Below the pieces are notes generated by a model, which worked only from the letters and a program-made list of their open reading frames with translations, was not told the origin of the DNA and made no database searches. DNA of 64,000 bases from Isoetes taiwanensis (Eukaryota; Streptophyta; Lycopodiopsida; Isoetales; Isoetaceae): assembly GCA_021234155.1 (NCBI GenBank), contig JAJEKV010000161.1:1021316-1085315 (forward strand). Reading direction: 5' to 3'. The position numbers and the translations under genes are program-made. Positions 13,684 to 62,700 of the stretch are shown here, in pieces. How positions within the stretch are numbered: the stretch's first letter is position 1; every line of letters begins with the position of its first letter.

Positions 13684-16660
13684 TTTCCTTTGCCTAGGAT
13701 CTAATCTAGCCAAAGCCATACTCCTAACTTGGTCACTTAACCGAAGCTAGAGAAATTCTGTCCTGGCACTACCCAGGCCCTATTCCAGATGAGTCCAGCC
13801 TGAATACAAAATAAGTTCTATATTTGTCTGAAGTCGTTCAACATTTTTCTATTACCAAGTTATCTTTCCTTTTCCTTTAGCGTGTAGAATTTTTGAAAGT
13901 ATAGCCTTAGAAAGCAACAAATGTAGTTATATAAAGTGAAAAAAGGTAATAACATCCCTTTCTTTTACCAGAAAGTCTAGTAGTATACATATCTTTGCTG
14001 ATCATAATCGTTGTGTACACATTTCGAGCTTCGAGCTTTTATGTGAAGATATTCCACCCTTTTTCTTGATAACAACATCCCTAAAAGCAAAAAGCGACAA
14101 TTGGAGGAGAGAGCCCGTACCTGCAGCCAAACATGCAAACGTTAGCAGTAATCCCAGTAACGATGCAAGGGCCAAAAGGTACATTGGGTCTCTCAGTTTA
14201 TCACTGATCACCAATTGTAACCTTGCCCTGAGACATCGTTAACAAGAAAAGGAAATAGAAATGGAAGTATAACTTAAGATTCTCAGTTAATCCAAAAAGT
14301 TGCAATATAATTTGCAACTCATTTGCTTTTTTGCACTCTATGTAAATACATGGTGCAACGAGTCTATAACAATCTCTAGTTTCAAAGACCTAAATAAGAA
14401 TTCAAGAAGGATGTCCAAACTATTGCGGGGGCACCAAAATATTACGCTACACTATCATATAAAGCTTGTAGTTTTAGCAAACAAATTATGCAAGTCTAAA
14501 CAAGGTGCATTCCATGTTTAACCAAATGCAACAAATCAGACGGGCTTTTAAGCTTCAAAGATATGCACAAATAATGCAAGTATACTTAGTTTTATGTAGT
14601 CCGTTTGAAAAACGGTGCATCACTTCATAGTGTTATCCATTTCATATTGTAACAATTTCCTAGTGCATTCATCATTTTACTTAAAAAAGCATAGTGCATA
14701 TAATTTCAAAATCCATAACAAAGACGTTCATGTTTCATGTTATTGAAGCAAATAAATTGCAATAACCTTTTGTAGCACTCCAAGAACGTTTAAGAGTACC
14801 ATTATCCAAGTCGGAAAGCTCAAAGTCCACTTTCGGTTTTAGCGGGACACCGCTTTTAAAGGGCAACCATTGGCCTTTCAAAATCATGCAAATAATAGAA
14901 GCTATTTTGGTAGAAGTCCAAAAAGCCTTTCAAGATTCAAGATGCTTCTATAGGCACATCATATTCACTCATAAATCCTAAGTTTAATTAAATCATTCAA
15001 AGATAATATCTCAAACGATAATACCACAAACCTGAATGAAAATGCTTGATCTGTCATGCATCACTTTGTTCCAGTTGAAATTGCTCCAACTAAGATTTTA
15101 AAGTAGAAATATCCTCTCCATAATAGGGAATTTCTATTCATGAAATTTTGCACCAGTGCACTATTATTTCGGCCAGAACTGCTTGCAACGAAGGCCATTG
15201 TATGATCCATTATGATCCCGTGTAATATCAGATGTATCAATCAGACATATTTCGCCCCCGCTTTTCATTTGAAGAAGGCTTGACAGTCGAATCATGCGAG
15301 AATCGTATGTGGCTAGGCCGAAATCCTCAAATCCGGCCTCATCTTGCCTGGCTAATCTAGTTTCGACCGCCTCAGGACGTAATCTGGCCGCTAGAAATTG
15401 AGCTAGGGTTTGTTAGCCCTAAATATTAATATGGCCAAATTCATATTGTGCAAGTAGTCATGCAAGCCATTTTTGCATGACGGCTAAAAAACATATAAGC
15501 AATGCTACGTGCTCTTTTGCCCTCAACCATTTGCAAACAAGTTCCCAATCTTTGCCATGTTTAATAAAATTCTAGAATAAAAAGATCTTTTTGTATCCAT
15601 AATATGCAAATCGTCACCCTTGGCCATTTTGTCAAGAATGCATTGAGGTGTAAATCCATCACATCATGCAAAAAGTCTATGCTAAGGAAGTGGCAAGTGG
15701 CAACTTGCATTACCTCGTAATATAAAGTTTAAAGGGTAAAGCATTTGTTGCATGCAACATTTTATCCACGAACCACTCTTTATCAAATAATAAAAAGGGT
15801 CATATATAAGCATTTTGTCCAACCATAAACTTGTTTTTTAGCCAAATGTGCATTTGTTTACCTTGGACTATGTAAACCATAGTGCCATTGTTCAAACATC
15901 ACGTGTATAAAATTAAAAGACATCACAACCTCCACCATTAGTACAAACTTTGAAATGGCGTGACCTTGAAAAATATCAAGGGTTCTCATAAATAATTTTC
16001 GTGCTATTTTCAAAGGTCTAATTTAGACCAACAAATTCATGTCCATTGTACTTTTTGCCTTGAGGGCCTTCAAATATTGGCCTTAGCAAATGTCCCCAAG
16101 AAAACCAAAAGACCAATGCATTATTATGTTTTTGCCATAGACAATAACCAGTACCATTGCAACATTTTTGCTTTTCTTTAATTCTATGCCATTTTGAACC
16201 ATAGGCCCATATGTAAATTGTGTAATCTAGATGCACCTTAGGCATATTGGGCTAAAAATGTCCCATGCATTTTATCATGCAACCAAATATCCCATGCATT
16301 ATATGCAACTAGTACAGCCCTTTAGTATAAGGGCCTTTGCAATATAGGTAACCATGGTGCCATTGCATTATGGGCAGCCATTACACTATAGGAGAATACA
16401 CCGTTCTGGTATTCTGTTTATGGCTAGATCCCATATCAAGGTCCCAATTGTGCCTTTTAGTACAGGGGCCATGGCATAATAAGTAACCATGGTGCCATTG
16501 TTCAAACTTGGTGCCATATCCATATAGGCCACCACTGCACTATAGGAGAATACACAGCTCTTGTATTTTGAGCCTGTGTTATGGGAATTCTAGACCCCAT
16601 ATCAGCATAAGCTTCACAAGTGTTGTATCTAGCTCTTGTGTGCAACCGTCTCCAACCTGT
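13681..16660 (-). mobile_element. Family A element A1 (non-coding subfamily)
   Basis: A TA-bounded module of about 3 kb whose sense strand is the minus strand, judged from splice-like signals. In sense order it begins at the TA-rich edge with CAACAGGTTGGAGACGG-type sequence (16640-16660). It carries R1 at about 14100-14225 and ends with the R2-type terminus (complement of 13681-13782) at AGTATATATA. It is an older relative of A2, A3 and A4, which share both edges. No protein-coding exon is convincing. A frame at 14002-14214 reads through R1 as LLALASLLGLLLTFACLAAG but is broken in the sister copies. Confidence 0.75.
14100..14225 (-). ncRNA. R1 pseudoknot block, subfamily 2 (A1)
   Basis: Sense-strand features are a CAGTGATAAACTG hairpin, GTACCT, then ATCGTTACT, GCTAACGTTTGCATG and CTGCAGGTACGGG. 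GTACCT can pair with the AGGTAC that overlaps the CAG|GTAC donor-like site. The same block is in A2 (28495-28625), A3 (31540-31670) and A4 (41623-41722). Confidence 0.55.
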
Positions 16661-20499: not shown

Positions 20500-23400
20500 C
20501 AATGGCTGGCTCAGGCTTAACTGATTATGCTAGAATTTTTTGATTGAGAACTTTTTCTAGTAGTGTAATGACATAACTTACTATTGGCCGATCATTACCC
20601 ATAACATTGCACTAAGCTCTCGGTGGCACATAGTAGTGATTTATTGGGTACCATTTAGAACTGGTGTTAGATCTACTGAAAAGCATTTGCATAAGCCTTG
20701 GACCTTTGCATTATTTGTAAAATGATTGTTATTGCTCTTAACTAGTTGGAATCTAGTAACTTATGGAGGTGGAGTGACCCCATTGGACACATATCTTGCA
20801 CTGAATCACATGCAGTGGCACAGTCTGTGCAAGGCAATCTAGTGCAGCTCAACTTTGTCAAATACCCCTTGTGGGCAATTTAGATATATGGAGCACACAA
20901 CTCTTTGGTGCATGGCATATCATGCCAATCGATGCAATATTTAGGAACATGAGAGGTTACAAGGGTTGTTGACTAAATTCCAAGGTATGCAATTTGGTTC
21001 CCAAATGTCCTTTTATTTAAAACAAGGGGCTTTCACTTTCACGTTTATCATGCTTTGACTTTCATGCATGCACATTCTTTATAAGATAAGGCATGTTTGC
21101 CACTTGTCTTTCTCAAGTAAATTTCACTTGCATGCATAACTTTTTGTATGTTATTCTACTTTTGACACCAATTTGGGTTTTGGATGGAAGAGCTAGCTAC
21201 GTATGCTAAGTTTTGCATATCTCTTGAATTAGCCTTTGGCTGGTTAATGGGTTGCCATATTGCCACACGTAGTTATATGCCTTAATGTTTGCTATCTTGC
21301 AATTTTTGTGACTAATTTAGAATATCTACTTGAAATATCATATATGGGAACTTTCCTTTAAAGTTTGACATTATGGATGCGGCATACTTGAGTAAGCAAA
21401 GGATGCATGGCTTATTAAAGCCAATTGTTCACGCTTGGTCCTCTCAAAGCGTGCTCTATCAAATTACTAGGGGTTTGAGAATCTTTAATTCAGTGGTCAC
21501 CGAATATATGAGGAGTATCTATGCACCAACTTTTTCGGTGCCTTTATACAATTCACATTTTTTATTCTTGTATTTTCTATGTGAACGTGGACATTATGAC
21601 CTTGCAAACCTAGACTCTTGAATGACGATTTTAGGGTTTCAGAGCAGCAGGCAAGAAACGGCGGTGCTGTACAACCAGAGGCTACGATTTTTTAGCAGAA
21701 GCATGGGAATGAAAACGACTACATGATTCTACATGCTTACATGGTAACGAAGTTGATTTCTAATCGTCCCACGATTTATCTTTAAATATGATTTGCATAG
21801 TCAACATAGGCCTTGCAGGATGTAGTATCTAAGGCATCACTTTCTTCTGAAATGATGGGTGATACAAGGCAGGAGAAGGATTTAATCAATACTTCATCTA
21901 CAAATTTGAACATTTGTGATGCTGTTACTTGTCATTTGGGTGAAGCTCCGCATTTGAGCAAAAGCAAGATCTTTATGAACGATGGAGCTGCCGCAGCAGC
22001 TTGGCTCTGATACAATGAGAAGGATAGAGGGCATGGATGCTTGCCCTCGCCATGCTCTGATAATCTTCCTTAATGCTAGCATGAGGCTGCATAGAGAAGC
22101 CTGTTAAACTTGGTTGAAACAGAGCATTGCATAGTTCTTGCATGTAGCACCTTACATGACGGAATAAATTTCCTTTGCACTTGAAAGCAAGGATGCTGCT
22201 GATACTTCGAACAGTGAGCATTCTATCTGCAACAAAGTAATGTGACGAGATCAGAACAATCTTTCAACATAAATCCAAAAGGCGATATTCGGAAAAGCTT
22301 GTGGTTCTTTGGATTTGAGTGTAGCTTTTTAGGCTAGAAACAGTGAAGAACATGGGGATCTTACAAATACATCAGTTGTTCTGAGCTGCCATGGAAGTTA
22401 AAAGCCAAGTCAACATTTGAACTACTAAAGCAGCAACATTTGAGTTCAAGGAGGGCGTCTTAACCAGGTTTTTTATGCATTTTGCTTAAAGGTTTAGCAA
22501 CAAAATACAACTAAAATCTTTGAAGGCGTGGTAAAACAATTTATTCGAGTACCTTATATTTGTGATTATGCTACTATTATTTGGATGTATGTCTTTATCT
22601 GTTTGAAAAACTTTCCTGGACCTTGGAGTGTTTATGTCTATCAAAAGCTTTACCACGATAAGTTACTGCTTGGGCCATTGAGCAGATAAGCTGATTTGTT
22701 GTAATGGATGCTTATTACAGGATGTTTTTTCTCACCTTAGCATATAGCTTTGCCTAGACTATCCCTTTTTACAAGAAATGGTTATTATGGAATAGATGCC
22801 ATATCCATTGGTTCTGCTCTAGAACAGTACTCTAATCTATTTCAGTAGAGTGTTCACAATAAGATAATGCTATGGCCATATTGCCATGAGAAAGAGTTTA
22901 TATGTTGTAAAAGATGCTTATTGCAGGAAGTTTTTCCTCACCTTAGCATGTAACTTAGCATAGACTAGTTATGTTTTATGAGAAACAGTTACTACGGAAT
23001 AGATGCCATGTCCATTGGTACTGCTCTAAAATGGGATTCTAATCTATTTCTGTAGAGTAATACAGGAAGTATCTTCTAACCTTCAAAAGAATTTGTCACT
23101 TTACTTGTTGAATTTGGTTGAAGGGCTAAACGCCATGAGACTCTATTGCTTACCTGCTAGCCATTTCTTCATTACCTTTTTTAGGCTAATGTTTGATTTG
23201 TTTGGCTGCAGGTAACCGGAGTTTCATCTACCAACTCTTTATATTTTGATGTTTCTGAAAGCAAGGAGCACTCAGATGACAGCAAATCAGCAAATGGAAA
23301 TATTTCAGTGACATTTTGACCATCAGGAAAGATCTCTCCTTTCTTGTATATAGACTTGTGTTTAAAAAGATCAAGGGATATAATTTTGCCAAATTTATCT

Positions 23401-27948: not shown

Positions 27949-28006
<58 letters not shown>
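27949..28006. repeat. (TA)n tract
   Basis: About 29 TA units joining the end of C2 to the R2-type end of A2. Confidence 0.95.
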
Positions 28007-30560
28007 TTTCCTTTGCCTAGGGTCTAATCTAGCCAAGTCCATACTCCTAACTTGGTCACTTAACCGAAGCTAGAGAAATTCTGTCCTGGCACTACCCAGG
28101 CCCTAAACCAAATGAGTCCAACAAGAATACTTACTTTCACATTCAGGCTACCTAGTAGAGGGCTGATTTCTCAAGCCCCAAAACTATGTGTCCTTAATGA
28201 AAAACTGTTATAAGCAATTCTTAAGTAAAACTCAACAATTAACATTTAGGGATATTTAGTCGAGGGCCGATTTCTCAAGCCCCAAAACTAAGCATCCTTA
28301 ATGAAAAGTAGTTGAGACAAATTCTAAAGCATACGTACAAAGTAGAGAGCAAATTGTAAAGTAGAATTATCTTGAAAGTGTATAGTTTAAACATTAACTT
28401 GTAAAACGTATAGCATACAGTTACATTTTTTTCGTACTTCCATAACCTTCCATGTTAACGCCAACCCTGGTAGCAAAAACAGAGACAATTGGAGGAGAGA
28501 ACCCGTACCTGCAGCCAATCATGCAAACGTTAGCAGTAATCCCGGTAACGATGCAAGGGCCAAAAGGTACATTGGGTCTCTCAGTTTATCACTGATCACC
28601 AATTGTATCCTTTTGCCCTGGGAAAACATTAACAAGAAAGAGAAATGGAATTATAACTTGAGAGTTTTCCAAATCCAAACAGTTGCAGTAGGATTAGCCA
28701 ACCATTAATCAAACTTATAAGTTATGCAATCAGATAGACATGGTGCATGAAGCCCAGAGTAAATTCTAGCTACAACTTAAGCCCGTAATCTCAATAAAGA
28801 AAACACATATTGCTTATGCATCCCGCATTGTATCACAAGTACATTTTGGCATCACTAAATGAATGCATAAAGCACTAAGACACCTTGGATAGGTTCATAA
28901 GAGGCCCGGTGCATATAGCAAAAGCCTTCATACAAAGAATGCTAGTTCAAAACGAGAACCTTCTCTAATTTGTACTTGCTATGTAAAATTCCAGATAATC
29001 ATAAGCACAGAATTGAAAAGCAATGGATTTCATTTCATATCTTTTCAAATACAAAGTAAATGAATCCAAAAATACCATAAAAATGAACTCAGATGTAGAG
29101 CGAGCATTAATATATTTCCATGTCTATGAGCCAAAGAATGACTCTCTGTCTATGAGTAAATCAAATCATGCCTAGAAACATGAGTAAAATGAAAAATAGA
29201 TTAATGTATAAGGCTGGAAAAACCCCGAGTATTAGCCGTTTCCCATCCTTTAGTAAATACTCTAGCTCGATTTTCCATTTCCTTAAGCTAGACGCCTCAT
29301 TTGTAATTTCCATCTTGGCATCAAATCGACACGCCCGCCTTCATATCAGGGATCGAAACTTAGTAGCAAGGCTTTTGGTACAGCCAAAACCCACACAGAC
29401 ATGGCCAGTTCTGTGTTATGCTAGTTCTGTGTCATGCTGAATAGTCACAATAATCTCATGGCATATCCAAGTTGCCATTCTAACAAATTCGGCCTGCCTA
29501 ATGTTGGCAGTGGCAAAGAATATGAACCAATGTTCTTACATCCATCAATTTGTAACAGAGCAAGAAGTCTAAGTATTGATCCAGCATTTTATCCCGTTGC
29601 AAGGCTGATCCCGCATACTGAGGCATAAAGATACCAAGCTGGTTTTGAAAGCTAGGTAGATCCGTGATGCTAAAATCATTTGGGCGGCCACATCAGAGCA
29701 AATCCGAACATCCCACAGTGATCCGGCTATTTTTGCATGAGAATCTGGTTTTCTACCAAATAGTAAGCAAGCAGATGCAAATCCAGATACATAATGCCAG
29801 TTTCGGCCTCCCTGAATATAGATCCGCGTAGCTAACCGTCATGCAAACGCCAAGTAGCCGCTGGCCTCGTGCCGTAACCTAATTTGATCCGTCCTCACCC
29901 TTTTAGGGCGGCCATTTAGGCTTAGTGTCATTGCCACAAAGAATGTGAATATATGAAACCCTAAATCGAATTATGCACAAGACCTTTACAATATCCAAAG
30001 GTAATTTGGCATATGTATACCGCACCATTCAAATATCATTGTGATTCTAAACATGCAAAAAGCAAGAAGTAATGCTTTTAAAAGGATTGGCACCTTACCA
30101 TATGCAAAAGTTGCCAAAATACTCAGTATAGTGTTGTAGTCACCATATAGTTTTAAACGAGGCAATAACATGGCATTTTACATAACTAGCCTTTGTGAAG
30201 ACCAAATAGGCAGTCAATTTTAGACCTATGCCCAATTATGCCAAGGGTCAACCTACTCATCATGACTAGTATGATGGCCATTAAATGCATGACCAAGCCA
30301 TAGGCACCATGTAGCAACATGATGTGAAAATTCAAAAATACCATACTACCTGATGGTGCCATAGTATTTTAGGCAACCCTATCTAATGCTGGGGGAGGTT
30401 CCCACCCCTGCACATTAGTACCCGTGGTGCCATTGTATTTAGGCAACCATAGCATTAAAGGAGTATACACAGCTCTAGTATTTTGAGCATGTGCAACAGC
30501 ATAAGCTACATCAGTGTTATATCCAAATTTCATGTGTTCCAAAAATTCTCCAACCCTGTG
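28005..30560 (-). mobile_element. Family A element A2 (non-coding subfamily)
   Basis: Sense is minus. The sense 3' end is the R2-type terminus (complement of 28005-28106: GGGCCTGGGTAGTGCCAGG ... AAAGGAAAGTATATATA). Just inside it are two copies of a hairpin motif (plus-strand GGGCTGATTTCTCAAGCCCC at 28160 and GGGCCGATTTCTCAAGCCCC at 28265). R1 lies at 28495-28625. The opposite edge is CACAGGTTGGAG next to TA at 30561-30589. It is nearly identical to A3. The shared small frames (for example 29986-30171) show no coding signature. Confidence 0.8.
28495..28625 (-). ncRNA. R1 pseudoknot block, subfamily 2 (A2)
   Basis: The same elements as in A4: a CAGTGATAAACTG hairpin, GTACCT, CGTTACCGGG and CTGCAGGTACGGG on the minus strand. 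GTACCT can pair with AGGTAC. Confidence 0.55.
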
Positions 30561-30589
30561 ATATATATTTATATTTATATATATATATA

Positions 30590-31049
30590 GTATCCTACCT
30601 CCTACCGCAGGAAGTAGGGTCCTAAAAGAAAATTCAGTATATTGCTAGGTAGCGCAGGGTACCTAGCATTCTGCTAGGACCCTACGCACACTGTAGAATC
30701 GTTACTTCGTTAAAAGCTAAAAGATAAATCACATAGCAGATATTCATACCTTTATGGTCCTGCTCAGGTTTCAAGAAGCCCAATTTTTTAATGTTCATAA
30801 ACCATAGAAATCCGTCATCATTCTGTGGCTAGTACTTGTCATTTTTGAAATTTCCCAATGCATCAAGAATAGCAAACAAGAAGTAAGTAGCAAGCCGAAT
30901 AGCTAATGTAACAAGAGAGCAAAGGCGTAATGAAAAACATAATGTTCAATAGATCACAAGAGGTGTACTGTGGTTCAATTAATTCAGGGTGGACTCAAAA
31001 GGATAGAGTTTCATATCCTTGAATATGATAACAGATGTTTCAAAGATAT
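30590..31049 (-). mobile_element. Short element with R3-type hairpin end
   Basis: About 460 bp between A2 and A3. Next to the TA tract is CCTACCTCCTACCG, then a long hairpin (AGGGTACCTAGCA at 30655-30667 with TGCTAGGACCCT at 30671-30682). The same layout ends A7 (54530-54615) and a 440-bp module at 39162-39604. Taking the TA side as the 3' end, sense is minus. Confidence 0.5.
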
Positions 31050-33602
31050 ATACTTTCCTTTGCCTAGGGTCTAATCTAGCCAAGTCCATACTCCTAACTT
31101 GGTCACTTAACCGGCTAGAGAAATTCTGTCCCGGCACTACCCGTGCCCTAAACCAAATGAGTCCAACAAGAATACTTACTTTCACATTCAAAGCTACCTA
31201 GTAGAGGGCTGATTTCTCAAGCCCCAAAACTATGTGTCCTTAATGAAAAACATATAAGCAATTCTTAAGTAAAACTCAACAATTAACATTTAGGGATATT
31301 TAGTCGAGGGCCGATTTCTCAAGCCCCAAAACTAAGCATCCTTAATGAAAAGTAGTTGAGACAAATTCTAAAGCATACGTACAAAGTAGAGAGCAAATTG
31401 TAAAGTAGAATTATCTTGAAAGTGTATAGTTTAAACATTAACTTGTAAAACGTATAGCATACAGTTACATTTTTTTCGTACTTCCATAACCTTCCATGTT
31501 AACGCCAACCCTGGTAGCAAAAACAGAGACAATTGGAGGAGAGAACCCGTACCTGCAGCCAATCATGCAAACGTTAGCAGTAATCCCGGTAACGATGCAA
31601 GGGCCAAAAGGTACATTGGGTCTCTCAGTTTATCACTGATCACCAATTGTATCCTTTTGCCCTGGGAAAACATTAACAAGAAAGAGAAATGGAATTATAA
31701 CTTGAGAGTTTTCCAAATCCAAACAGTTGCAGTAGGATTAGCCAACCATTAATCAAACTTATAAGTTATGCACTGTATAGACATGGTGCATGAAGCCTGT
31801 AGTAAATTCTAGCTACAACTTAAGCCCAGAATCTCAATAAAGAAAACACATATTGCTTATGCATCCCGCATTGTATCACAAGTACATTTTTGGCATCACT
31901 AAATGAATGCATAAAGCACTAAGACACCTTGGATAGGTTCATAAGAGGCCCAGGCATATAGCAAAAGCCTTCATACCAGCAATGCTAGTTCAGAACGAGA
32001 ACCTTCTCTAATTTGTACTTGCTATGTAAAATTCCAGATAATCATAAGCACAGAATTGAAAAGCAATGGATTTCATTTCATATCTTTTCAAATACAAAGT
32101 ATATGAATCCAAAAATACCATAAAAATGAACTCAGATGTAGAGCGAGCATTAATATATTTCCATGTCTATGAGCCAAAGAATGACTCTCTGTCTATGAGT
32201 AAATCAAATCATGCCTAGAAACATGAGTAAAATGAAAAAATAGATTAATGTATAAGGCTGGAAAACCTGAGTATTAGCGCTCGTTTCCCATCCTTTAGTA
32301 AATACTCTAGCTCGATTTTCCATTTCCTTAAGCTAGACGTCTCATTTGTAATTTCCATCTTGGCATCAAATCGACCTGCCTGCCTTCATATCAGGGATCG
32401 AAACTTAGTAGCAAGGCTTTTGGTACAGCCAAAACCCACACAGACATGGCCAGTTCTGTGTTATGCTAGTTCTGTGTCATGCTGAATAGTCACAATAATC
32501 TCATGGCATATCCAAGTTGCCATTCTAACAAATTCGGCCTGCCTAATGTTGGCAGTGGCAAAGAATATGAACCAATGTTCTTACATCCATCAATTTGTAA
32601 CAGAGCAAGAAGTCTAAGTATTGATCCAGCATTTTATCCCGTTGCAAGGCTGATCCGGCATACAGGGCATAAAGATACCAAGCTGGTTTTGAAAGCTAGG
32701 TAGATCCGTGATGCTAAAATCATTTGGGCGGCCACATCAGAGCAAATCCGAACATCCCACAGTGATCCGGCTATTTTTGCATGAGAATCTGGTTTTCTAC
32801 CAAATAGTAAGCAAGCAGATGCAAATCCAGATACATAATGCCGGCCGCCGCCTCCCCGAATATAGATCCGTAGCTAATCATCATGCAAACGGCCAAGTAG
32901 CCGCTTGGCCTCAGGCCAGAACCTAATTTGATCTGTCTCAGCCTTTTTAGGGCGGCCATTTAGGCGCTAGTGTCATTGCCACAGTAACAGGAATATATGA
33001 AACCCTAAATCGAATTATGCACAAGACCTTTACAATATCCAAAGGTAATTTGGCATATGTATACCGCACCATTCAAATATCATTGTGATTCTAAACATGC
33101 AAAAAGCAAGAAGTAATGCTTTTAAAAGGATTGGCACCTTACCATATGCAAAAGTTGCCAAAATACTCAGTATAGTGTTGTAGTCACCATATAGTTTTAA
33201 ACGAGGCAATAACATGGCATTTTACATAACTAGCCTTTGTGAAGACCAAATAGGCAGTCAATTTTAGACCTATGCCCAATTATGCCAAGGGTCAACCTAC
33301 TCATCATGACTAGTATGATGGCGCCATTAAATGCATGACCAAGCCATAGGCACCATGTAGCAACATGATGTGAAAATTCAAAAATACCATACTGCCTGAT
33401 GGTGCCATAGTATTTTAGGCAACCCTATCTAATGCTGGGGGAGGTTCCCACCCATGCACATTAGTACCCGTGGTGCCATTGTATTTAGGCAACCATAGCA
33501 TTAAAGGAGTATACACAGCTCTAGTATTTTGAGCATGTGCAACAGCATAAGCTACATCAGTGTTATATCCAGCTCATGTGTTCCAGCCGTCTCCAACCTG
33601 TG
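31050..33602 (-). mobile_element. Family A element A3 (duplicate of A2)
   Basis: Near-identical to 28005-30560 over its whole length in the same orientation, with scattered substitutions and small indels (for example AACCGAAGCTAGAG versus AACCGGCTAGAG). It carries R1 at 31540-31670 and the R2-type end at 31050-31150. The left TA tract is almost absent here (GATATATACTTTCC), unlike at A2, so the tract length is not tied to the copy. Confidence 0.8.
31540..31670 (-). ncRNA. R1 pseudoknot block, subfamily 2 (A3)
   Basis: Nearly identical to the A2 block, with the GTACCT/AGGTAC pairing intact. It adds little independent evidence because A3 is a recent duplicate of A2. Confidence 0.55.
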
Positions 33603-34883
33603 ATATATATTTATATTTATATATATATATATATATACCGCAGTCTAGATTAAATGGTAAAACTAGCCCATGGCCTATTCTGATCTTTAGATTTTAAATA
33701 CCTTCGATATATCTGAAAGTCTGGTAGGGTACCTCCAATTGGCTTCCACTGATAGGGAACTAGAAATTTAAGGCATATCTGGAGTTAAAAATGGCACATA
33801 ATGCTGAGTTCTGTCTCACCTTACAAAGGGAAGGAATTTCGTGCACACACTTTATGGGATAACCTCACATTTGTGCTATGGGGTTATTATTGCTTTAATT
33901 GGGGATGCAGGCTGTGGTTTTTCGGTATCAGGCATTTAAGCTATCTCTATGAAGGTGAACCAGGTGGTTCTTCTTACCCAGTAGCATGCTTTGAAGGCTC
34001 ATGAAATTGAGCAGATCTAGCCAGTATGACGTAGGGTCTGGTTTGTTTGATACACCCTTGGGTGACCAAAGCCAAGTTGCAAAAGCAATACAAGATATGC
34101 TATCTCGGGACTTGTGCCAATTGGATTTAATGATAAACTTGACCTATGGCCTATTTGGACATGTGTGTTGGGAGAATTTTAGTTATCTGGCAAATGGTTC
34201 CTAATTAACCTCCACTGGTAGGAATAAATGGTTAAAATTAATTATACAATTTGTGTTGAAATATGTCTCACCTAGAGAGGTAGGGAATTTGTTAACCTAC
34301 TATTTCAATTAGCCTCATGTAGGGTTTATGGATATTATAGCATAAACAGGAGGAGTAGGCGGTGTCAGGTTTATGAATCCCCAAAGGTTGAATGTTCATG
34401 GAGATGTGCGTTTTTGGACTTAGGATCTAATTTGATTAATTTTGCCCCGAAGTTACCAACACGGGGTTTGATTGGTTATTTATGGATTCAAAGGGTTGAA
34501 CATTAATTGGAAGGTCGCACGAGCTAATAACCTTTAAAGGTTTAAGGTATGTTATGGGGAGATTGTGCATTTGGTTCCTTTAATTAATTTTGGGCCTTGA
34601 TAATGGGTAAGTTTTCCCTTTTGATAATTAATATTATCCCTCCTCTAAAAAATAAACCCTAATCTTTTTACGATGGAGTGGCTCGTGGCCGGCCGTGTTC
34701 TCTTCTACGCTCCACGGGGAGCTTAACTGATTCAAGGTCTATTTCATGACTAGGACTGACACTAAGCATTGCGATTGCTCCTTTTCCAACTAATTTTCGC
34801 CAGGTGAGACCTCTGGTTTGATTATTTTTAATCTTCTTGTAAGTCAGGTTCTGATTAAGCAAGATTAAGATTATGTTGAACCC

Positions 34884-34924: not shown

Positions 34925-35305
34925 ATGAGCAAGGCAGGCCGCCCTGAAGGGGCAGTAAACAAGGGACACACTAGGGCCAAATTGATTGAGTTCTTGAGGA
35001 GGAATGGCCTGGAGCATAGCAGCCCACAGCCTTCAAAAGCACAACTCTTAGAGATGTGTACCTTGAATGGGCTAGATCCCAATAGGAGTAAATCTGATCT
35101 TGGCATAAAGAAGTTTATACCAAGTTCTTTGCCAATCCTTTCACCTTGTGGTAGCACCATTCCTAAGGTGATTGAAGCCCCTGCTAATGTGGGGATTGGA
35201 GCCCCTGCTAATGTGGAGATGGAAGCCCCTGCTAATGTGGATATGGTAGCCTTGACCAGTTCTGATGGTGAGGACGATTCAGATCAGGAGATTCAGCCAA
35301 ATCAG
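34925..35305 (+). CDS. AT-hook/SAP-like first coding exon of A5
   Basis: 127 codons to the splice donor CAG|GTCTTA. Residues 1-17 (MSKAGRPEGAVNKGHTR) hold a basic AT-hook-like GRP core. Residues 18-55 form two predicted helices (KLIEFLRRNGLE, QLLEMCTLNGLDP) reminiscent of SAP/HeH DNA-binding domains. A hydrophobic linker (IKKFIPSSLP) follows, then three 8-residue repeats of the form [IM][EG]APANV[GED], and an acidic tail ending IQPNQ. The start is fixed by alignment with A6 (45265) and A8 (62122), which begin identically. The exon ends in phase 0. Nuclear DNA binding is inference from the AT-hook and acidic tail. The function is unknown. Confidence 0.65.
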
Positions 35306-35566
35306 GTCTTAATTTGCATTATGTTTTTATCTGTTATAATAATTCTCTGGAATTGCATCGATCTTCACTTGGATGCAAGTTGGATTGTAAGTATTTTAAG
35401 AATGGATTTCTGGTTTCCCAGCAATTAGACCATATCTGTGAAATTGAGTTATACCTTTGCAGATTTAATAATAATAACTATGTGTCTTCCACACGTTGTG
35501 TTAATATTGTTAAATTTCAGTTAGGCTACAGTTGTTTAGCCTTTGTTAGTTTTGTAATTATTGGTA

Positions 35567-35675
35567 GGGTAAAGGGCTGAAATATGCCAAGAGGGTTCAT
35601 AGCTTACCTGTAGTCATTTCACTATTACCCAGTAGGCTAATGTGTGATTTTTGACTGCAGGTAACCGGACTCTCT
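35567..35675 (+). ncRNA. R1 pseudoknot block (A5)
   Basis: GGGTAAA (35567-35573) pairs with the TTACCC end at 35625-35630. A GGC/GCC hairpin lies inside (35575-35588). TTACCTG (35604-35610) pairs with CAGGTAA (35658-35664) across the first stem, giving an H-type pseudoknot. CAG|GTAACC is also a 5' splice-site match. GGCTAATGTGTG between them is shared with other copies. Confidence 0.6.
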
Positions 35676-36380
35676 TCTCCCATGCATTTCATGGTGCTGT
35701 GTGGATGATTGTCTTCTTGAAGATTGACGAATCTATGATGTTTTTATCTATTTTATATTGTTGGTTTAGTAAGGTATGCACTTTTTATACCAAAATGGAT
35801 TCCAAGTTTATGGATGCTATTCTGTAAGTATTCAAACTCTTTGACTGCAATATTGAATACTTCTAAGAATATTTTGTTAATGTTTCTAAAATTAATGAAA
35901 GGTCTATTCTATGATCAAATTTAAGTTGCTCTCTGATCTCCTTAATAAAATACCCCAATTTTTTTAATCGGATTTCAGATTTATTTTCCATTGAGTTTGG
36001 TTATTTCAATTCCTTTAAGAATGCTTTCCCTAATTTTGTATTATTTGATCTGCTGGTCATACTCTCTGCCCACTCTTTAGTGGTTAATAGTGGTCTTATT
36101 TGGGATTATGTCTTCCTCTAGGGTCTATATCTGTAATAATTTTATTGTGTCTTATATGATAAATATTTTTGGGCTTATGGTCCTTCCTCTGAATTTCCAT
36201 AATTATAGTAGAATTGGTTGGGAGTCCTATATGTTTTGGTGGCTTTGTGCTTATTCTTTCTTAGTTCCTCTACTTTTATTCTTTCTATGATGTAAACATG
36301 GACTTGTTTGGTAATTGGAATAGTCTTGTATTATGTTGGCATCTTTTTGCTAAGTTATGGGCTAAGTTTAGCTCAACATG

Positions 36381-36475
36381 TCTCTAAGGCTTCCCCAATT
36401 TGGGGTCTGATAAGTCCAATAATCCCTAGGGATTATTTGGATGTCGGCTTAAGTCATTAGGATTAGGTTAGACCA

Positions 36476-36478
<3 letters not shown>
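36381..36478 (+). ncRNA. R2 structured block, 3'-truncated (A5)
   Basis: TCTCTAAGGC, hairpin CCCCaatttGGGG, CTGATAAGTCC, a long hairpin (CCAATAATCCC at 36416-36426 with GGGATTATTTGG at 36429-36440), GGATGTC, then CATTAGGATTAGG and the TA tract. The closing strand GCCTTAGAGA is missing because the copy ends at TA. Confidence 0.6.
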
Positions 36479-36539
<61 letters not shown>

Positions 36540-36849: not shown

Positions 36850-36957
36850 AGATTGGTTACCTGCAGCCAACCAGTCCAACATTAGCATAAAACATGGTAA
36901 AGAGGAAAGGGCTGACAGGTAAGCAGTAATCTTGCATGGCTCAACGCCCTTCACCAA
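36850..36957 (-). ncRNA. R1 pseudoknot block (A10)
   Basis: Sense strand: TGGTGAA pairs with TTTACCA (with a G-U pair where other copies have A-T). A GGCgttgaGCC hairpin follows. TTACCTG (complement of 36916-36922) pairs with CAGGTAA (complement of 36857-36863). In this copy the region is also open as protein (AYLSALSSLPCFMLMLDWLAAG, a membrane-helix-like stretch), so it could once have been coding. Confidence 0.55.
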
Positions 36958-37162
36958 ATAATTGCTTCAGAAAATTTAGTGCTAGATAACAATCAGCAAA
37001 TTTATGACTCAATAGACAGACTAGTTTGTATACAAACCATACTCATTTGTGAGGGTGTTCTTTCTCCCAGTTAACCAGCATTACTATACGAACTTAGCAT
37101 TTACCAAAATCAAACCTGATTTTATAGAAGCTCTTTCTTCTCCACTTGATTCGTCCTGTGGC

Positions 37163-40331: not shown

Positions 40332-41622
40332 CTTACATTCTATTCTACTTCGTAAATCCTCTAGTTATGGAGTAGGAAATCCCAGAAAGAAACTTTGAAG
40401 AATAAAGCTTCATAAGAAAGCTGCAGATCACATTTAGGTCGGATTTCAGAAATCGTTTTCTGACATAGCTAATCTCGTCAAAACTTGACTGTTTTTTCAT
40501 GAAAAGATAGAGCGTACTGTGCCATTTCCGAAACATATAATTAATAAAAAAACAGAGCTCTGTGCTAAGAGCTATGCCTGTTTTTGTAGGGGCTGTCATT
40601 TTATGGCAGCAAGTACTTATCTTCCATTTTTTACAAGCTTAGACTTAAAATTTGATGGAGATGCACCTAAGATGAAATATAGACTTAAGAAAGGGGCTTC
40701 TTTTGCTTCTATTCTCAAGACGTTTAGTTGCTTATATCTCTTACTATCGTCAGTTAACTAACAAATCATGTAGCTTTACATATGATTTTCAATGCAAACG
40801 GTGCTAAGCTATGGGCTTGGAGCAAAAGCCAGCGTCTTTGGCACTCTTTATCAAGATTGAAACTATCTTACAGATCTGATTTTAAGATCAATGGTAGTTC
40901 TTAAAATAATGATCTAATTTGAGAACTTGGAAACTACCCAAATAAGACGTAATGTAAATACATGCTGAAATAATGTTTCTTAAAATGCAAATGCATAACT
41001 GAGATAATTCATTGATAGGCTAAATTATTCTTGAACTAGTTATGTTCTACTTTGTATATCTCCGGGTTATGGAGTAGAAAATCCTAGAAAGAAACTTTGA
41101 AGCAAAAGTTTCATAATAAAGCTGCAGATTTCATTAGGTCGGATTTCAGAAATCGTTTTCTGACATAGCAAATCTCTTCAAAACTTGACTGTTTTTCCTT
41201 GAGAGGATAGAGCATATCATGCCGTTTAAAAAAACATATAATTAATAAAAAAACAGAGTCTTGTGCTAAGAGTTATGGCAGTTTCTGTGCGGGCTGTTAT
41301 TTCATGGCAGCAAATACTTATTCTTCATTTTTGACATGCTTAGACTTAAAATTTCAGAGAGATGCACCTAAGTCAAAATGTAGACTCAGAAAAGGAGCTT
41401 CTTTTGCTTCTATTCTTGAGAACTTTGGTTGCTTATATCTCTTGCTATTGTCATTTAGATAACAAACTATGTAGCTCTCCGCCTACTTTTTGGAGGCTAT
41501 CGGTAATTTTGATTATACTATTATATTTTGAACTGCAATTTTTGGGATTTAAGAAAAATCTCAAGTTTTAATTCCATTTCTCTTTCTTGTTAACGTTTAC
41601 TTTCGGGGCAAAAAGGATACAA

Positions 41623-41722
41623 TTGGTGATCAGTGATAAACTGAGAGACCCATTGTACCTTTTGGCCCTTGCATCGTTACCGGGATTACTGCTAACGTTT
41701 GCATGATTGGCTGCAGGTACGG
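41623..41722 (+). ncRNA. R1 pseudoknot block, subfamily 2 (A4)
   Basis: TTGGTGA (41623-41629) can pair with TTACCGG (41677-41683) using wobbles. CAGTgataaACTG is a hairpin (41631-41643). GTACCT (41655-41660) pairs exactly with AGGTAC (41715-41720). GCTAACGTTTGCATG lies between. The order matches subfamily 1, with changed but still complementary sequences. Confidence 0.6.
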
Positions 41723-41924
41723 GTTCTCTCCTCCAATTGTCTCTGTTTTTGCTACCAAGGTCGGCGTTAACATGGAAGGTTATGGAATTACGAAAAAAAT
41801 GTAACTGTATGCTATACGTTTTACAAGTTATTGTTTAAACTATACACTTTCAAGATAAGTCTACTTTGCAATTTGCTCTCTACTTTGTACGTATGCTTTA
41901 GAATTTGTCTCAACTACTTTTCAT

Positions 41925-43899: not shown

Positions 43900-44010
43900 G
43901 AAGGAGTTCGGTTACCTGCAGCAAAAAAGCATACATTAGCCTAAGAAGGGTAATAATGCCTATGCTAGCAGGTAAGCTATGAACAACCTTGGCCTTTCGG
44001 CCCTTTACCC
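43900..44010 (-). ncRNA. R1 pseudoknot block (A6)
   Basis: GGGTAAA (complement of 44004-44010), hairpin GGCCGAAAGGCC with a GAAA loop, TTACCTGC (complement of 43968-43975), TTATTACCC, GGCTAATGTATGC, and GCAGGTAA (complement of 43912-43919). This is the best-paired copy. A frame also runs through it on the same strand (43874-44083). Confidence 0.65.
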
Positions 44011-44947
44011 ACAGATAGAAAGAATAATTAGAAAATGAGCATACATTAAGAACAATTAAGGTTATATGGAAGCATAAGAACAATAAGAGTTAATATAAGC
44101 TAGTGAATCAGTCTAGGCAACAACTGGGAACATGCAGTAGATGACAGATCCTAAAGAGACAAGTCAAAAAGTAAAGCATAATAAACTGCCTGCTCAAATC
44201 AGTTTTAACCTAATGTAAAATCAGACCAGTGGTAAGGTAGATACGTTCATCCACGGTAGTAGACTTGAGTAGCAACCATGAAGCAAAGTAACATTACAAA
44301 GGCCAAACACTAGAACCACAACCATTTAATTACCACAACCTGCCAAATGCTACCGCCAACAGAAGCAGAGTAGGAGATTCCCAGCAGAAATAATGAGATC
44401 CCAGTAGATATAGTAATACAGACTATGATTCAGAGAATAAAACTATATATGCCTGTGGACCAAATACATGCATCTTGCCAAACATATTACCTTATCAAAT
44501 CTAAATACTCAGGAAATCTAAATACTCGAAATAAATGCTAAGGCCAGTCTATTATGTTGTGGCAAATCTGAGATATGGCAGTCTAAATGTAGTCTAAGCC
44601 AACACCCAATTATAACAATAAAGAAATAAAGAAATAACAGGCAGATAACATGCCCACATCAGGAATAAAAAGTGGTTTACCACGGTTGTAGCAGCAGAAA
44701 GATATACAAATGATTGAAACATAATGCTAAGACGGAATTTAAAAAGGAGAAGAAAAAACATAAACAAAGCATAGGATTAACCCTGCCCTGCGTGAATAAT
44801 TACATACACAAAACCCATTACTCCCTAACTACAAAGTAGATACTGATAGAATAAACAGTACCAGGCAATTTCATAGAGATCATGAACATTGAACTTAAAA
44901 GAAAAAAAGAGGACATAACAATCAAGAGTTCAAGCTAACTATAGAAC

Positions 44948-48341: not shown

Positions 48342-49448
48342 GTTTTATTTAGCTTATTGCTTACTTTGCATTATATATTGTCTAAATTTCATTTGCAGCT
48401 ATGATCATTCTGTACCTGGAAGATCTTCTCTTATAAATCTTCTTGTTCTTGTTCTAGCATACGATTTTCCTTCTCTAAATTGTTAGTAGGATCCCTTTGT
48501 TTTTACTGCTTAGTTTTCTGTAGCAGATCTATTTTCTTGTAGCATGTTAAGATCCTGTAGGTTCTTGATATCATATCACTCTGGTGGCCATTCAGTTCTA
48601 TGGGAGGGGTCATAGGCTGCATAATATGTTACTGAAGATAATTACTCTATTTTCTTATGCCATGCACGGGCAGGATTTTGATAGGAGACTCATAATTCCA
48701 TTATGCAGCTTGATCTCTTGGGCATTACTGTCTTTAAAATGCACCTTCACTTTATGTTGCCTCTTTATTATGTCCTACTCATGATTTCTGATAGTTTTGG
48801 CCAGCATATTCATGTGTTCTATCCAGTTGGCTTACATGAGTTCCATTTGGCCTAAGCAGATTGCATGGGTTAATTCCATTATGATATTTTCCCTCTTAGT
48901 CAAACGCAGCCATATTGATTTATTATTTGTTAGTTTTCTTTTTTCTTTGGTGTGGACCTTGGAGCCTAATATTGTTACTCTTATTCTAGAATTTGTTCCT
49001 TATCTTTTTCATTATCTATTTTAACATTGATCGATCGGTTTGCCTAGTTAAATTGCATTCAGGTGCATTACGAGATCCGGTCTTTTATGTTTGTTATGAT
49101 GACCGCTTTATGGATATATTGCCCAGGTATAGACGTTTTTAGTTTCAATCTCTGTTCTACTGAATAGTATATAATAAACATCTTTGCTTAGTTGTACACG
49201 GATCGCCTAAATTCTTTCTAATATTTCAGTGCTATCCAATAGGTCTATGGCACACGAGTTTGTCTAGCTTGTTATATTCTTATATTATGATATGATGTCT
49301 CGGTTATGTAGCTATTAAGTTTTAGCTTTTCGAATTTCAAGCATCCCATCCGGTTACATTAAATTTAAAATATTGCATATAGTTCAAATGTAATTTGTGT
49401 ATAATATCTTTACTTTATGGCAATTTTAAGAATTTCTATTAATGTCGT

Positions 49449-49565
49449 GGGTAAAGGGCGAAAGGCCAAGGTTATTCATTGCTTACCTGCTAGCATATGC
49501 ATTTTACCCTTCTTAGGCTAATTAATGCATTTTTTTTGCCGGTAACCGAACTCCTTCTCCCATAT
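49449..49565 (+). ncRNA. R1 pseudoknot block (A7)
   Basis: GGGTAAA (49449-49455) with TTTTACCC (49502-49509), a GGCgaaaGGCC hairpin, TTACCTGC (49483-49490), and GCCGGTAA (49538-49545), which gives one mismatch in the long-range stem and loses the CAG of the donor-like site. Confidence 0.55.
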
Positions 49566-49859: not shown

Positions 49860-52800
49860 TTGAACTTTTTTGTGGAGATTGATGGTGATCAGTCCTTTAC
49901 GTGGTGTAATGGTTGGACAGGAGCTGGCAGAGCTTATGCAAGGCATGATAGAGGATACTTTAATACTTGTGCAGCTGCTCGGCTAGCGGATTTTCGTCGC
50001 TCAAATCTTCTGGATAGCTCTGTGTCTGATCATAATCCACAACTTCTAACTAATGATGTGGCTAATTGTCATCGACCTACCAGGACCTACTTTAAGCTTA
50101 ATTGCAAGTACCTGGAGGATGATGAGTTCAAAGTTGGCTGTAGTCGGGCTTGGTCTCGGGCCTTCTCACCTCGTAGGGGGGCATGTCGGGGTTGTTGCGG
50201 CGTTGTCTGCGGTGAAGTCATTTGCAAAAGAATATGGGAGAGTCGAGGCTGCTGAAGCTAGAGGGCTATTATTTGCATTGTACCGGGAATTAGAAGTACT
50301 CGCTGCGTGGCCATACTAATGGAGTCGGAGAAAAGGAGTTATTTTTTCTCGGATCAAGGCTATAGAAACCGTAAAAATTTATCGAAGCCAAAGTGAAAGG
50401 GGTTGCAAAGTGGTTCAAGGACGGTGATAGATGTACCCGGTTCTTTTTTGCGGCTGCAAGAAGAAGGAAACTCGCCACTTCTATACATTCTTTGGTGCTG
50501 CCAGATGGTGCTCTTATCTCCGATCCGGTGAATCTTAAGCAAGATATCTTCATCATCACTTTTCTTCATTCTTTGCATCGACACCCATTGCCCTTTCGGA
50601 AGGACATGCAATTGGGTGTGTTGACTAAGGTGCGTCGCATTGTTTCGAAGAGCGAGAGGTTGCTTCTTGAGTCTAATATTGTGAAGGAGGACTTAAAAGC
50701 ATTTGTGGCTCTCTTGAAAAGGGATAAATGCCGGGTCTTGATGGCTTTCCTATTGAATTCTTTCAGAAGTGCTGGGACTGGTTGGAGGATGACATATATG
50801 ATGCCTTTTGTGAGTTTCAGAGATTTAGGAGCCTTGATAAGATTTTGAATACAGGTTGTATCTCTCTCATTCCAAAGAACAAGGAACCCAAGACTATTTC
50901 TGACTGGCGACCTATTACATTGCTTTCCTCTGTGTACAAGATCTTTGCTAAGACATTGGCAGAAAGAGTCCGAGACATCTTGGCTGACGCTATCTCGTCA
51001 ACACAATCGGCTTTTCTCCCTCGTCGTTGTATTCTCAACAACGTGGCTGCTGCATATGAAGGAATATATTGGGCCCGGTTACAGGGTCATAGAGCAGTGT
51101 ATCTTAAGCTTGATTTTGCTAAAGCCTACGATAGTGTTGATTGGGGCTTCTTGGAGAAGTGTCTTCTTGCACTTGGGTTTGGGGAGTCATTCACAAGGAA
51201 TGTCATGAAGCTCCATACATCAGCCAGATCTCCATGTCCTTTTCGAGGGCGAGCCATCGGATATTTTTGTAGTGGGTAGAGGAATTCGGCGGGGTTGTCC
51301 CTTAGCACCCTTGCTTTTCACAATTGTGGCGTAAGTCTTGTCCCGGCTCTTCTCCGTGGCTACCCAAGATGGCGTTATTCAAGGCCTCCCAATGGACGAT
51401 GGTTCTCAAGAGGTATGTAACCAATATGCCGATGACACTTTTTTGTTCCTAATTGCCGAGGCTGAGAATCTTCGTAATGCTAAGCTATTATTAGACACAT
51501 TCTCCTTAGCATCAGGAGTTCTTGTAGGGTGGCAAAAATGTACTGACTTTGTGGGCGTTGGAGTCCCATCCCTCCCTGTATTTTGGACTATCCTTGGAAG
51601 ATTCTTCTGCATGGCAATACCACAAAGTTGCTTGGTATCCCAGTTGGAATTCATGTCTCTGCTTCAGATGCTTGGGATGAAATCATTAGTGGGTTGCAAA
51701 AGCACTTGTTTTGGTGGAATCTGACTAAGTCCTGGGTCCATGCCCGGTAGAATCACTGTGGCTAAATGTGTTCTTAGTAATACTCATGTCTACATGGCGT
51801 CTGCTTTACTAGCTCCGCAGTGTAAGATGGAGGAGATTGTGCGTATCGTCAGAAATTTTATTTGGGGTGGAAATGAGTTAGGAGCAGTGGTCAAGGTAGC
51901 TTGGGCGAAATGCATTAGACCTAAGGCAGCTGGTGGTCTTGGTATGTTGGATTTTCACCTCCAAAGCAAGGTGATGATATCAAAGTTCATTTGGAGGATT
52001 TTCATTGGTAAGGATGATTCTCCTGGCCTGAGGTTGTTGGTGCAGTCGATTCAGCATTGTCTCCCATTTCATAAGGCCTCCATTAAGCCCCTCCTTCCTT
52101 GGGCTTTGCTTTATCATATGCATCCGTATCCTAATGCTTCTCCCTTTCTAAAGGGGTTGCTTGATGCTTGGGACACTTGTCGTCTCTTTTCCATATTAAT
52201 CACGAGGCATGTCTTGAGTTGTCCACTCCATCTTTGGTGGATTCCTTTGCGGGGACACTCCGGAGAATGTGCCTCTAAGTGTGGTTGTTCATCCAAAGAC
52301 ACAACGACGATGGGTAGCAGCTGGTATCAATACTATTGCAGCTTGGTATGAGTCTGATCATCTCATGTCATGGGAAGCATTTAGAACAAAGTTCTTGTTG
52401 TATAGATGGGGATGAGTAATCTGGAATCATATTCTTTGCATTGTTGCCGCGGGATTATGGTCCCAGATTGAGGTAGTCATATGGGGTTGCCATCGGGATA
52501 TCCGGCCGAGGCGGTTTGTGTCTTACGTGTATAAATTGCTTGTGCATTCTGAAATCCCTGCCTCCATCTAATAGATGGCATCTTGAGTCCCTCGACCACA
52601 ATGGAAAAGTGTTTGGATATGGGTATGGGATAAGCTGCTTCACCCCAAAGTAGTAGTTTTGTGGTGGCAAGTGATCCATAGATGCCTCGAGTCAACAGGT
52701 TAGTCCATAAAATGGATAATCGGATTTGAGCTCGCCCTTTATGCCGCAAAGGGTTGAGAGTATTGAGCATTGTTTTTTTCTTGTGTGAGAGGCTTGGCGG

Positions 52801-59154: not shown

Positions 59155-59490
59155 CTACACAGCTCGCTTCCACAATGCCATAATTACACCATCACATCTA
59201 ACCACAAAAAGATGAGTTCTCCGTGTTACCTCTTTAGAAGCGCCCTCCAAGCACGTAGTTTCACCACCACCAGCAGGGAGACTAGCTTCCGGATTGTCAT
59301 AAACAGGTTCGCCATGAGCCGCCAAGGCATTTGCTTTCATTGTAGCAGCTCTCATGACACATCTACGAATCACATTTGATGCTTGGAAATTCTTTGTTCT
59401 GTCATCAGACGGTGTTCTACGGACACCAAAATCACTTCTCTGCTTTTTATTTTTCGCCCCAGGGGGACGTCCTGCTCTTTTAGGCCCCAT
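59155..59490 (-). CDS. AT-hook protein or exon of A9
   Basis: 111 codons from MGPKRAGRPPGAKNKKQR, a canonical AT-hook (GRPPG flanked by basic residues), to a stop at 59155. The rest is hydrophilic and basic (VRRTPSDDRTKN, VIRRCVMRAATMKAN) with a cysteine pair further on, and no domain I recognise. The start matches the MSKAGRPEGA start of A5, A6 and A8 in style. The longer upstream frames (to 60219 and 60782) are only open because the polypyrimidine strand lacks stops, so I start at the AT-hook methionine. It may be an exon (a phase-dependent donor is not obvious) or a complete small protein. Confidence 0.5.
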   Translation of the reverse strand: MGPKRAGRPPGAKNKKQRSDFGVRRTPSDDRTKNFQASNVIRRCVMRAATMKANALAAHGEPVYDNPEASLPAGGGETTCLEGASKEVTRRTHLFVVRCDGVIMALWKRAV

Positions 59491-59544
59491 AGGCGCTGGT
59501 CTGCACTTCTCTCCGGTTTGCCAAGGACGATAGCTTTGAATGGC

Positions 59545-62460: not shown

Positions 62461-62587
62461 GTTAAATCTGATTGTATTATTTATGTTTGCAGCAGCTTTT
62501 GGCTTGTTTTAATGACTTGCATGGTTGGTTGAATTGTTTGAACTAATGGATCTGGGCTATCTGACTTTAAATTTAATATTATGTTGT

Positions 62588-62700
62588 GGGTAAAGGGCGA
62601 AAAGCCAAGGGAATACAATGCTTACCTGCTAGTCCATTCACATTTTACCCTGTTTGGCTAACTTGTGTTTGTTGAATTTGCGGTGTAGTCTTCCCTTCTC
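62588..62700 (+). ncRNA. R1 block, partly decayed (A8)
   Basis: GGGTAAA (62588-62594) pairs with TTTACCC (62644-62650). A GGCgaaaaGCC hairpin and TTACCTGC (62622-62629) are intact. The distal strand is changed (TTTGCGGTGTAG), so neither the long-range pairing nor the CAG|GTAA site survives. Confidence 0.5.

Follow-up and report, generated by a model that had tools for sequence, protein, structure and literature searches.

The 64,000-nt stretch of Isoetes taiwanensis DNA analysed here (the window) carries a recurrent block of about 100 nt, R1, that resembles both a folded RNA and a splice site, and it raises the question of how the fold and the site are related. The first-pass annotation had taken R1 for a pseudoknot switch whose 3' strand is a 5' splice site. 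On balance, from comparison of the copies, we favour a reading in which R1 would be an RNA structure that encloses a 3' splice site (acceptor) and regulates removal of the first intron of a retroelement.

Copies, fold and covariation of R1

A covariance model of the block recovered all ten copies annotated in the window (Table 1), with their motifs in the constant order described, and the four copies of the diverged subfamily carry GTACCT/AGGTAC with CAGT/ACTG as had been reported. A 2.6-kb stretch stands twice in tandem (27999-30593 and 31046-33634; 96.8%), with one diverged-family copy in each. Genome-wide, the hairpin-end word GGGTAAAGGGCNGAAANGCCAAG with at most two mismatches has 228 matches against 0 for its control, and the arm pattern TACCTN{26,36}GCTAAN{15,26}TGCAGGTA has 4,869 against 1 for its reversed control; these copy numbers are far beyond chance. 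Among the matches listed, neighbouring copies are often 3.0-3.3 or 6.4-9 kb apart on the same strand, as judged by eye. On contigs C46, C38, C4, C49 and C1, copies recur every 3.0-3.3 kb on one strand, perhaps as tandem arrays of short elements that lack a reverse transcriptase (RT). From the 4,869 matches we used 67 strings, weeded of duplicates by eye so that a few distinct ones may have been missed, and a wider genome sample of 40 places, hand-picked from the first 100 listed and thus not random.

Several genome copies have scrambled R1 arms that resemble base-calling errors. Clustered scrambled bases, with R1 arms also affected, occur at L011 (contig C485), L012, L020, L022, L037, L039, L048, L049, L051-L053 and L063, and in L011 the patches lie at CAG/CTG/CCGG-type sites along one repeat pair. 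The pattern suggests nanopore errors where CHG sites are methylated and the repeats have not been polished, and such errors could be mistaken for hot spots of mutation. Short scrambles at CTGCAGG in many copies had been considered as excision footprints, a reading dropped because the patches lie at CAG/CTG/CCGG-type sites across one repeat pair.

The minimum energy of the main window copy is -49 kcal/mol, compared with -32.1 +/- 3.8 for shuffled sequences (z -4.4; 0 of 200 as low). The fold is nested: an outer stem, S1, closes a three-way junction of ~120 nt that holds a small hairpin, HP, and a long arm, P0-P2-P3-P4. Covariation was assessed with a swap test, in which the duplex energy of each copy's own strands is compared with that of strands exchanged between copies, on a main set of 35 clusters below 75% identity. 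This came from a wider set of 68 distinct copies with intact TACCT, GCTAA and TGC[AC]GGTA and enough flank, a selection that says nothing on the constancy of those letters. None of 20000 permutations matched the native pairing for P0 (z -16.2), inner P2 (z -10.2), P3 (z -7.6) or P4 (z -6.3), and one did for S1 (z -5.0), a result weakened by the hairpin finder having misplaced HP in some copies (n = 35 throughout). Five control pairings of neighbouring segments gave z of 0 to -1.7, the strongest at 236/5000. All three pairs of HP have changed on both sides (A4), with permutation p of 0.00065 for 19 representatives, 0.093 for 10 and 0.097 for 9.

The near relatives were compared as 51 distinct aligned rows, of which five did not suit one parsing pattern (L073 on both strands, the 3' copy of L012, L071 and the window copy at 62585). 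Pairing holds in 95.5% of cells, with 8 of 16 pairs altered on both sides, and slid versions of the pairing fall to 16-39% of cells. Wobbles in inner P2 and P3 are G.U rather than A.C (63 against 0, and 30 against 2), so the sense-strand RNA is the strand that pairs; P0 is without this preference (27 G.U, 36 A.C). The nested pairing of R1 is real and conserved across the family, and the annotated claim of a structured RNA under selection stands, since five nested helices covary far beyond permutation while controls stay nearly flat. The long-range pair TTACCTGC/GCAGGTAA survives as the outer portion of the longer arm, and its letters hardly vary, so that the swap test does not bear on it; outer P2 (TACCT/AGGTA) is supported instead through the helices adjoining it at either end. 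For the 5' arm of P2 in the diverged family, an alternative upstream strand was unconvincing (z < -2 in just 3 of 12).

The covariation check proposed with the annotation, run here as the swap test, succeeds for the nested helices (0-1/20000), but fails for the pseudoknot itself, GGGTAAA/TTTACCC (P1). Its pairs are kept in 95% of cells among 21 near relatives, and the swap test is weakly positive in 9-19 close subfamilies (p 0.004-0.044). In the wider family, however, the copies' own pairing is no better than swapped: with n = 68, 48, 35 and 24, swapped strands do as well or better in 17449, 19940, 19863 and 19938 of 20000 permutations, where the same test gives 0/20000 for nested helices, and a differently placed strand gives 19852/20000 (n = 35). 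The GGG of GGGTAAA is taken up by S1, in which it pairs with a downstream CCC. P1 was rejected on the wider set and, as joined copies described below show use of the site as an acceptor, we attach almost no credence to a pseudoknot switch whose 3' strand is a 5' splice site.

Table 1. Features of the window, with position, strand, remarks and basis
Feature	Position	Strand	Remarks	Basis
R1, main copy	35564..35685	+	whole structured RNA: outer stem, small hairpin, long arm	fold, helix coordinates, nested-helix covariation
S1, outer stem, 5' strand	35564..35569	+	pairs with 35679-35685; includes GGG of GGGTAAA	fold; covariation
HP, hairpin	35575..35588	+	GGC/GCC	both-sided changes; permutation
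P0, helix, 5' strand	35589..35598	+	AAGAGGGTTC; pairs with 35667-35676 beyond AG|	covariation
P2, helix, 5' strand	35604..35616	+	TTACCTGTAGTCA	inner part covaries; outer TACCT/AGGTA near-invariant
P2, helix, 3' strand	35652-35664	+	TGACTGCAGGTAA; includes AG|GT	pairs with 35604..35616
P3, helix	35619-35627	+	pairs with 35638-35647	covariation
P4, tip helix	35629-35630	+	CC/GG; pairs with 35635-35636	covariation
Branch-point-like CTAAT	35637..35641	+	in P3/P4	GCTAA conservation; putative branch role from consensus
AG of candidate 3' splice site	35659..35660	+	next base 35661, GTAACC	matching site is the joint in L129, L130-L133
ORF0 exon in direct repeat	34925..35305	+	inter-copy homology stops at NQ|V	comparison of copies
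Predicted intron 1, 355 nt	35306..35660	+	donor AATCAG|GTCTTAAT to R1 acceptor	joint shared by intron-less relatives
Predicted exon 2, 113 nt	35661..35773	+	ends AAG|GTATGC (donor at 35774)	donor test; repeat comparisons
R1 copy	23113..23222	+		covariance-model match
R1 copy	49446..49552	+	TGCCGG replacing TGCAGG	covariance-model match
R1 copy	62585..62695	+	3' arm degraded	covariance-model match
R1 copy	36850..36959	-		covariance-model match
R1 copy	43905..44013	-		covariance-model match
R1 copy, diverged subfamily	14112..14216	-		covariance-model match
R1 copy, diverged subfamily (family A)	28500..28604	-		covariance-model match
R1 copy, diverged subfamily	31544..31648	-		covariance-model match
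R1 copy, diverged subfamily	41621..41725	+		covariance-model match

The host retroelement

R1 sits in both of the direct repeats of ~2.6-3 kb that flank ORF1 and an RT open reading frame, and the block is indeed part of a gene-bearing repeat family. In the two elements followed in detail the unit is 7.1-7.2 kb, and in one of them the direct repeat starts and stops in AT repeats. Direct repeats round the ORFs are a criterion of Penelope-like elements and are present here. The RT matches Pfam RVT_1 weakly in five of five near members (best E 3e-4), and that of a distant relative, L127, scores above the cut-off at 31.0 bits; the motifs of the RT may be Penelope-like. Neither the RT nor ORF1 brought up a usable match in the PDB. 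A GIY-YIG endonuclease, which is absent from some Penelope-like clades, had no Pfam match among the ORFs scanned, and a hammerhead ribozyme had no Rfam match in the stretches scanned.

The position of R1 in the repeat of a possibly Penelope-like element, together with its three-way junction, might suggest a self-cleaving ribozyme, or an RNA of some other known class, in place of the hammerhead of Penelope-like repeats. Yet Rfam gave no match for the window at the gathering score or for 20 diverse R1 copies up to E=5, and for six larger loci it gave just three chance microRNA matches, in AT repeats and far below cut-offs. No known catalytic core is apparent by eye; HDV-like, twister and hammerhead readings were considered in this way, without Rfam support. 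We therefore regard such an identity as very improbable, and R1 is an RNA family without an Rfam match in the stretches scanned.

A small ORF, ORF0, lies upstream of R1 in the repeats of the elements. L127, with an RT 43% identical, keeps the order small ORF, R1, ORF1 and RT; BLAST finds its small ORF unlike ORF0, and the donor, AG|GTTCTT, was read by eye. The small ORF contains a GRP-rich basic stretch, GRPPGAKNK or GRPEGAVNK (L127 579-1127; window 34925-35305), and Pfam gave no match. The stretch resembles an AT-hook, which would suit element ends at AT repeats.

A second conserved block, with hairpins, is found at the 3' end of the direct repeat (window 36379-36515; L009 ~1920-1960). Its TGTCTCTAAGGCTT is, by eye, complementary to AAGCCTTAGAGACA, located just beyond the repeat and ahead of the ORF1 acceptor, and the block may be another structured RNA that closes over the repeat end. 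The window also holds a separate RT fragment, apparently of another retroelement (50728-51276; RVT_1 53.5 bits), a 470-aa ORF on internally repeated DNA of the minus strand without a Pfam match (59370-60782), and a gene for a PPR protein with an E motif (1842-2816), a sign of a land plant.

A candidate 3' splice site and its intron

Of the 51 distinct aligned rows of R1, 49 retain GCTAA and 47 retain CAGGTA while the surrounding helices change, and a T-rich stretch lies between the two motifs. As had been annotated, a splice-site-like sequence is buried in the structure, with AG|GT inside the 3' strand of P2. The same CAG|GT is donor-like as well, scoring 7.6 bits as CAG|GTAACC on a rough donor matrix of round numbers, and it had been read as a 5' splice site. 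Such evidence as there is favours an acceptor, although the site may serve as a 5' splice site as well, given this score and the constancy of CAGGTA. Because CTAAY and the T-rich stretch precede CAG|GT, and copies lacking the intron join an upstream exon exactly there, CAG|GTAA is primarily a candidate 3' splice site, and processed-looking copies support its use as an acceptor in a few subfamilies; in the nearer families a donor follows later. The resemblance of CTTACCTG to the U1 snRNA is explained by its pairing with CAGGTAA.

In five copies ORF0 homology breaks off at AATCAG|GT or AACCAG|GT, in phase 0. The R1 acceptor lies 337-404 nt past the ORF0 end in the elements of L001/window, L002/L011, L004/L012 and L007/L008/L010/L013, and in L015 it lies 343 nt beyond the same type of word; the predicted intron is ~350-900 nt where measured. 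In 30 distinct R1 copies with 1.2 kb of upstream sequence, families and decay states pooled, AAYCAGGT occurs anywhere upstream in 14 and is absent from 16, and it gives an intron below 450 nt in seven, one of which (255 nt) is identified by the AAYCAGGT word alone. The ORF0 donors are weak (3.5-6.0 bits), and the CAG|GTAACC site scores above them.

The joint itself is seen in two kinds of copy. L129 joins ORF0 to R1 at AATCAG|GTAACC without the 881 nt that L005 has from donor to acceptor, and it is flanked by 623 nt upstream at 90% to L005 and 614 nt downstream at 97.7% to L003. In L130-L133 an ORF0-like tail, recognised in L130 by eye only, is joined at the same CAG|GT point, with just 16-19 nt of exon 2 homology; these four are probably one event, which would make two events in all. 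As the joined-copy pattern has five matches against four in the reversed control, it is their context and not their count that carries weight. At the joint, CAGGT is present in ORF0 as well as in R1, and a deletion across this 5-bp microhomology could mimic splicing.

Downstream of the acceptor, the nearer families were examined as 44 copies in 32 clusters, which remained from 63 distinct rows after removal of 18 without TGCAGGTA and of window copy 23115. In the range +80 to +135, 18 of the 32 clusters have a donor of at least 8 bits, against 0 at +20 to +75 and 2 at +140 to +195; for donors of at least 7 bits the numbers are 21, against 1 and 4, respectively. Among 40 copies of the wider family, just four have a donor of at least 7 bits at +80 to +135 and one has such a donor at +20 to +75, and a defined exon 2 is thus a feature of the nearer families. 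When L001 was compared with five other repeats, similarity stopped within 10 nt of the exon 2 donor in two, earlier in two and later in one.

In the 21 donor-bearing clusters, exon 2 is 96-126 nt long, and its lengths divide 7, 7 and 7 by remainder of three. The ORF0 frame meets a stop within it in 19 of these clusters, and its +2 frame is open in five, the 35567 copy included. The predicted exon 2 carries stops and preserves no reading frame into ORF1, and the open-frame count and the spread of lengths led us to reject the idea that it is coding and spliced to ORF1. The Y-rich start of exon 2, considered as a protein-binding site, is accounted for as the 3' strand of P0. ORF1 opens straight after its acceptor in four copies, in phase 0 and fitting ORF0, and the four starts read share no common start codon; since the two ORFs are in phase, skipping of exon 2 would fuse them. 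Searches for a copy joining ORF0 to ORF1 (exon 1 to exon 3), by patterns and a 60-aa junction peptide, found none, the single pattern match being unrelated sequence and the furthest-reaching peptide match an unspliced acceptor. The seven pattern matches for an exon 2-exon 3 joint, against five in reversed controls, were likewise all unrelated sequence.

The juxtaposition of acceptor and donor at CAG|GTAACC, or CAG|GTACGG, would also fit a ratchet (recursive) site, at which AG|GT serves as the acceptor for ORF0 and the rebuilt AATCAG|GTAACC is then the donor for ORF1, so that no exon 2 is left. GTA varies less than an acceptor would demand, and the site as a donor outscores those of ORF0. Fly recursive splicing uses a cryptic exon at the ratchet point (PMC8605326), and in the nearer families the donor further downstream would supply one. 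However, that downstream donor usually outscores the site itself (median 8.6), the constancy of GTA could reflect the structural contact TACCT/AGGTA, and no copy with an ORF0-ORF1 joint was found. We consider recursive use of the site improbable.

The main alternative is that R1 is chiefly a recognition signal for the RT or coat protein of the element, marking as template only the unspliced full-length RNA in which an intronic R1 is retained, much as retroviral packaging signals mark unspliced RNA. This would suit the presence of R1 in both direct repeats, the conservation of its structure as in a protein-binding RNA, and its retention in the wider families where the downstream donor is rare (4/40). 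But the most constant letters, GCTAA and CAGGTA, are like splice signals and are used in the joined copies, and part of S1, like the 3' strand of P0, falls past the acceptor, so the fold is not wholly intronic. Moreover, the template RNA of one Penelope-like element required the first 172 nt of the ORF, with the full pLTR dispensable (PMC11167929). A template signal is possible, and we think it rather unlikely.

Under the favoured reading, R1 would comprise the 3' end of the first intron and the first ~25 nt of the following exon in the retroelement transcript, and its long arm would hold the CTAAY branch motif, the T-rich stretch and the AG|GT acceptor. As all three lie in the arm, the folded RNA should hinder the acceptor. 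A folded arm would then hide the acceptor and leave intron 1 retained in a full-length RNA or, in the nearer families, might alternatively cause the ~100-125-nt exon 2 to be skipped, whereas an open arm would allow ORF0 to be joined to exon 2, usually hitting a stop there. Candidates for opening the arm are a protein, perhaps that of ORF0 itself, or the kinetics of transcription, and a plausible outcome is that part of the RNA stays unspliced, as a template must, or lacks exon 2. The stronger proposal, that R1 is a self-controlled switch whose junction keeps branch site and acceptor covered until it is opened by some factor, perhaps the ORF0 protein, is tentative, and on the sequences at hand we would call it rather unlikely.

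Comparison with known systems

Intron-bearing retroelements must keep some RNA unspliced as template, and how those that are not retroviral do so is, to our knowledge, largely open. If the switch were true, it would divide transcripts between spliced mRNA and unspliced template RNA, and selection would have maintained it in chromosomal copies by the thousand, in subfamilies with RTs just ~43% identical. With its thousands of natural variants and their compensating changes, R1 is also ready material for asking how RNA structure controls access to a plant 3' splice site. Within the open literature, as represented by titles and the openings of abstracts, no such RNA is described in a plant retroelement.

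In plants, the 5S rRNA mimic (P5SM) in the suppressive exon of TFIIIA is a structured RNA thought to decide inclusion of a stop-carrying exon; in R1, by contrast, the structure surrounds the acceptor and is not itself the exon. Introns occur in some Penelope-like elements. This element is unlike the Penelope-like group in having no GIY-YIG by Pfam in the ORFs scanned and no hammerhead in the stretches scanned, and its RT likeness is a judgement by motif. As described in PMC11167929 and PMC12477314, Penelope-like pLTR elements share with it direct or tandem repeats round the ORFs, a divergent RT, an AT-rich association and a structured RNA in the repeat. Ratchet points (PMC8605326) resemble R1 in having acceptor and donor side by side at AG|GT, to which the nearer families add a downstream donor; unlike them, R1 lies within a covarying structure, and its predicted intron is short.

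The nearest known case is the acceptor of influenza A segment 7, at which an equilibrium between pseudoknot and hairpin has been proposed to hide or expose the site (PMC3369869). Both systems would have a conserved RNA fold round a 3' splice site and its polypyrimidine tract. In contrast to segment 7, R1 has no second conformation supported by covariation; it forms a nested three-way junction with the branch motif also inside the arm, and it is present in thousands of chromosomal copies of a plant retroelement.
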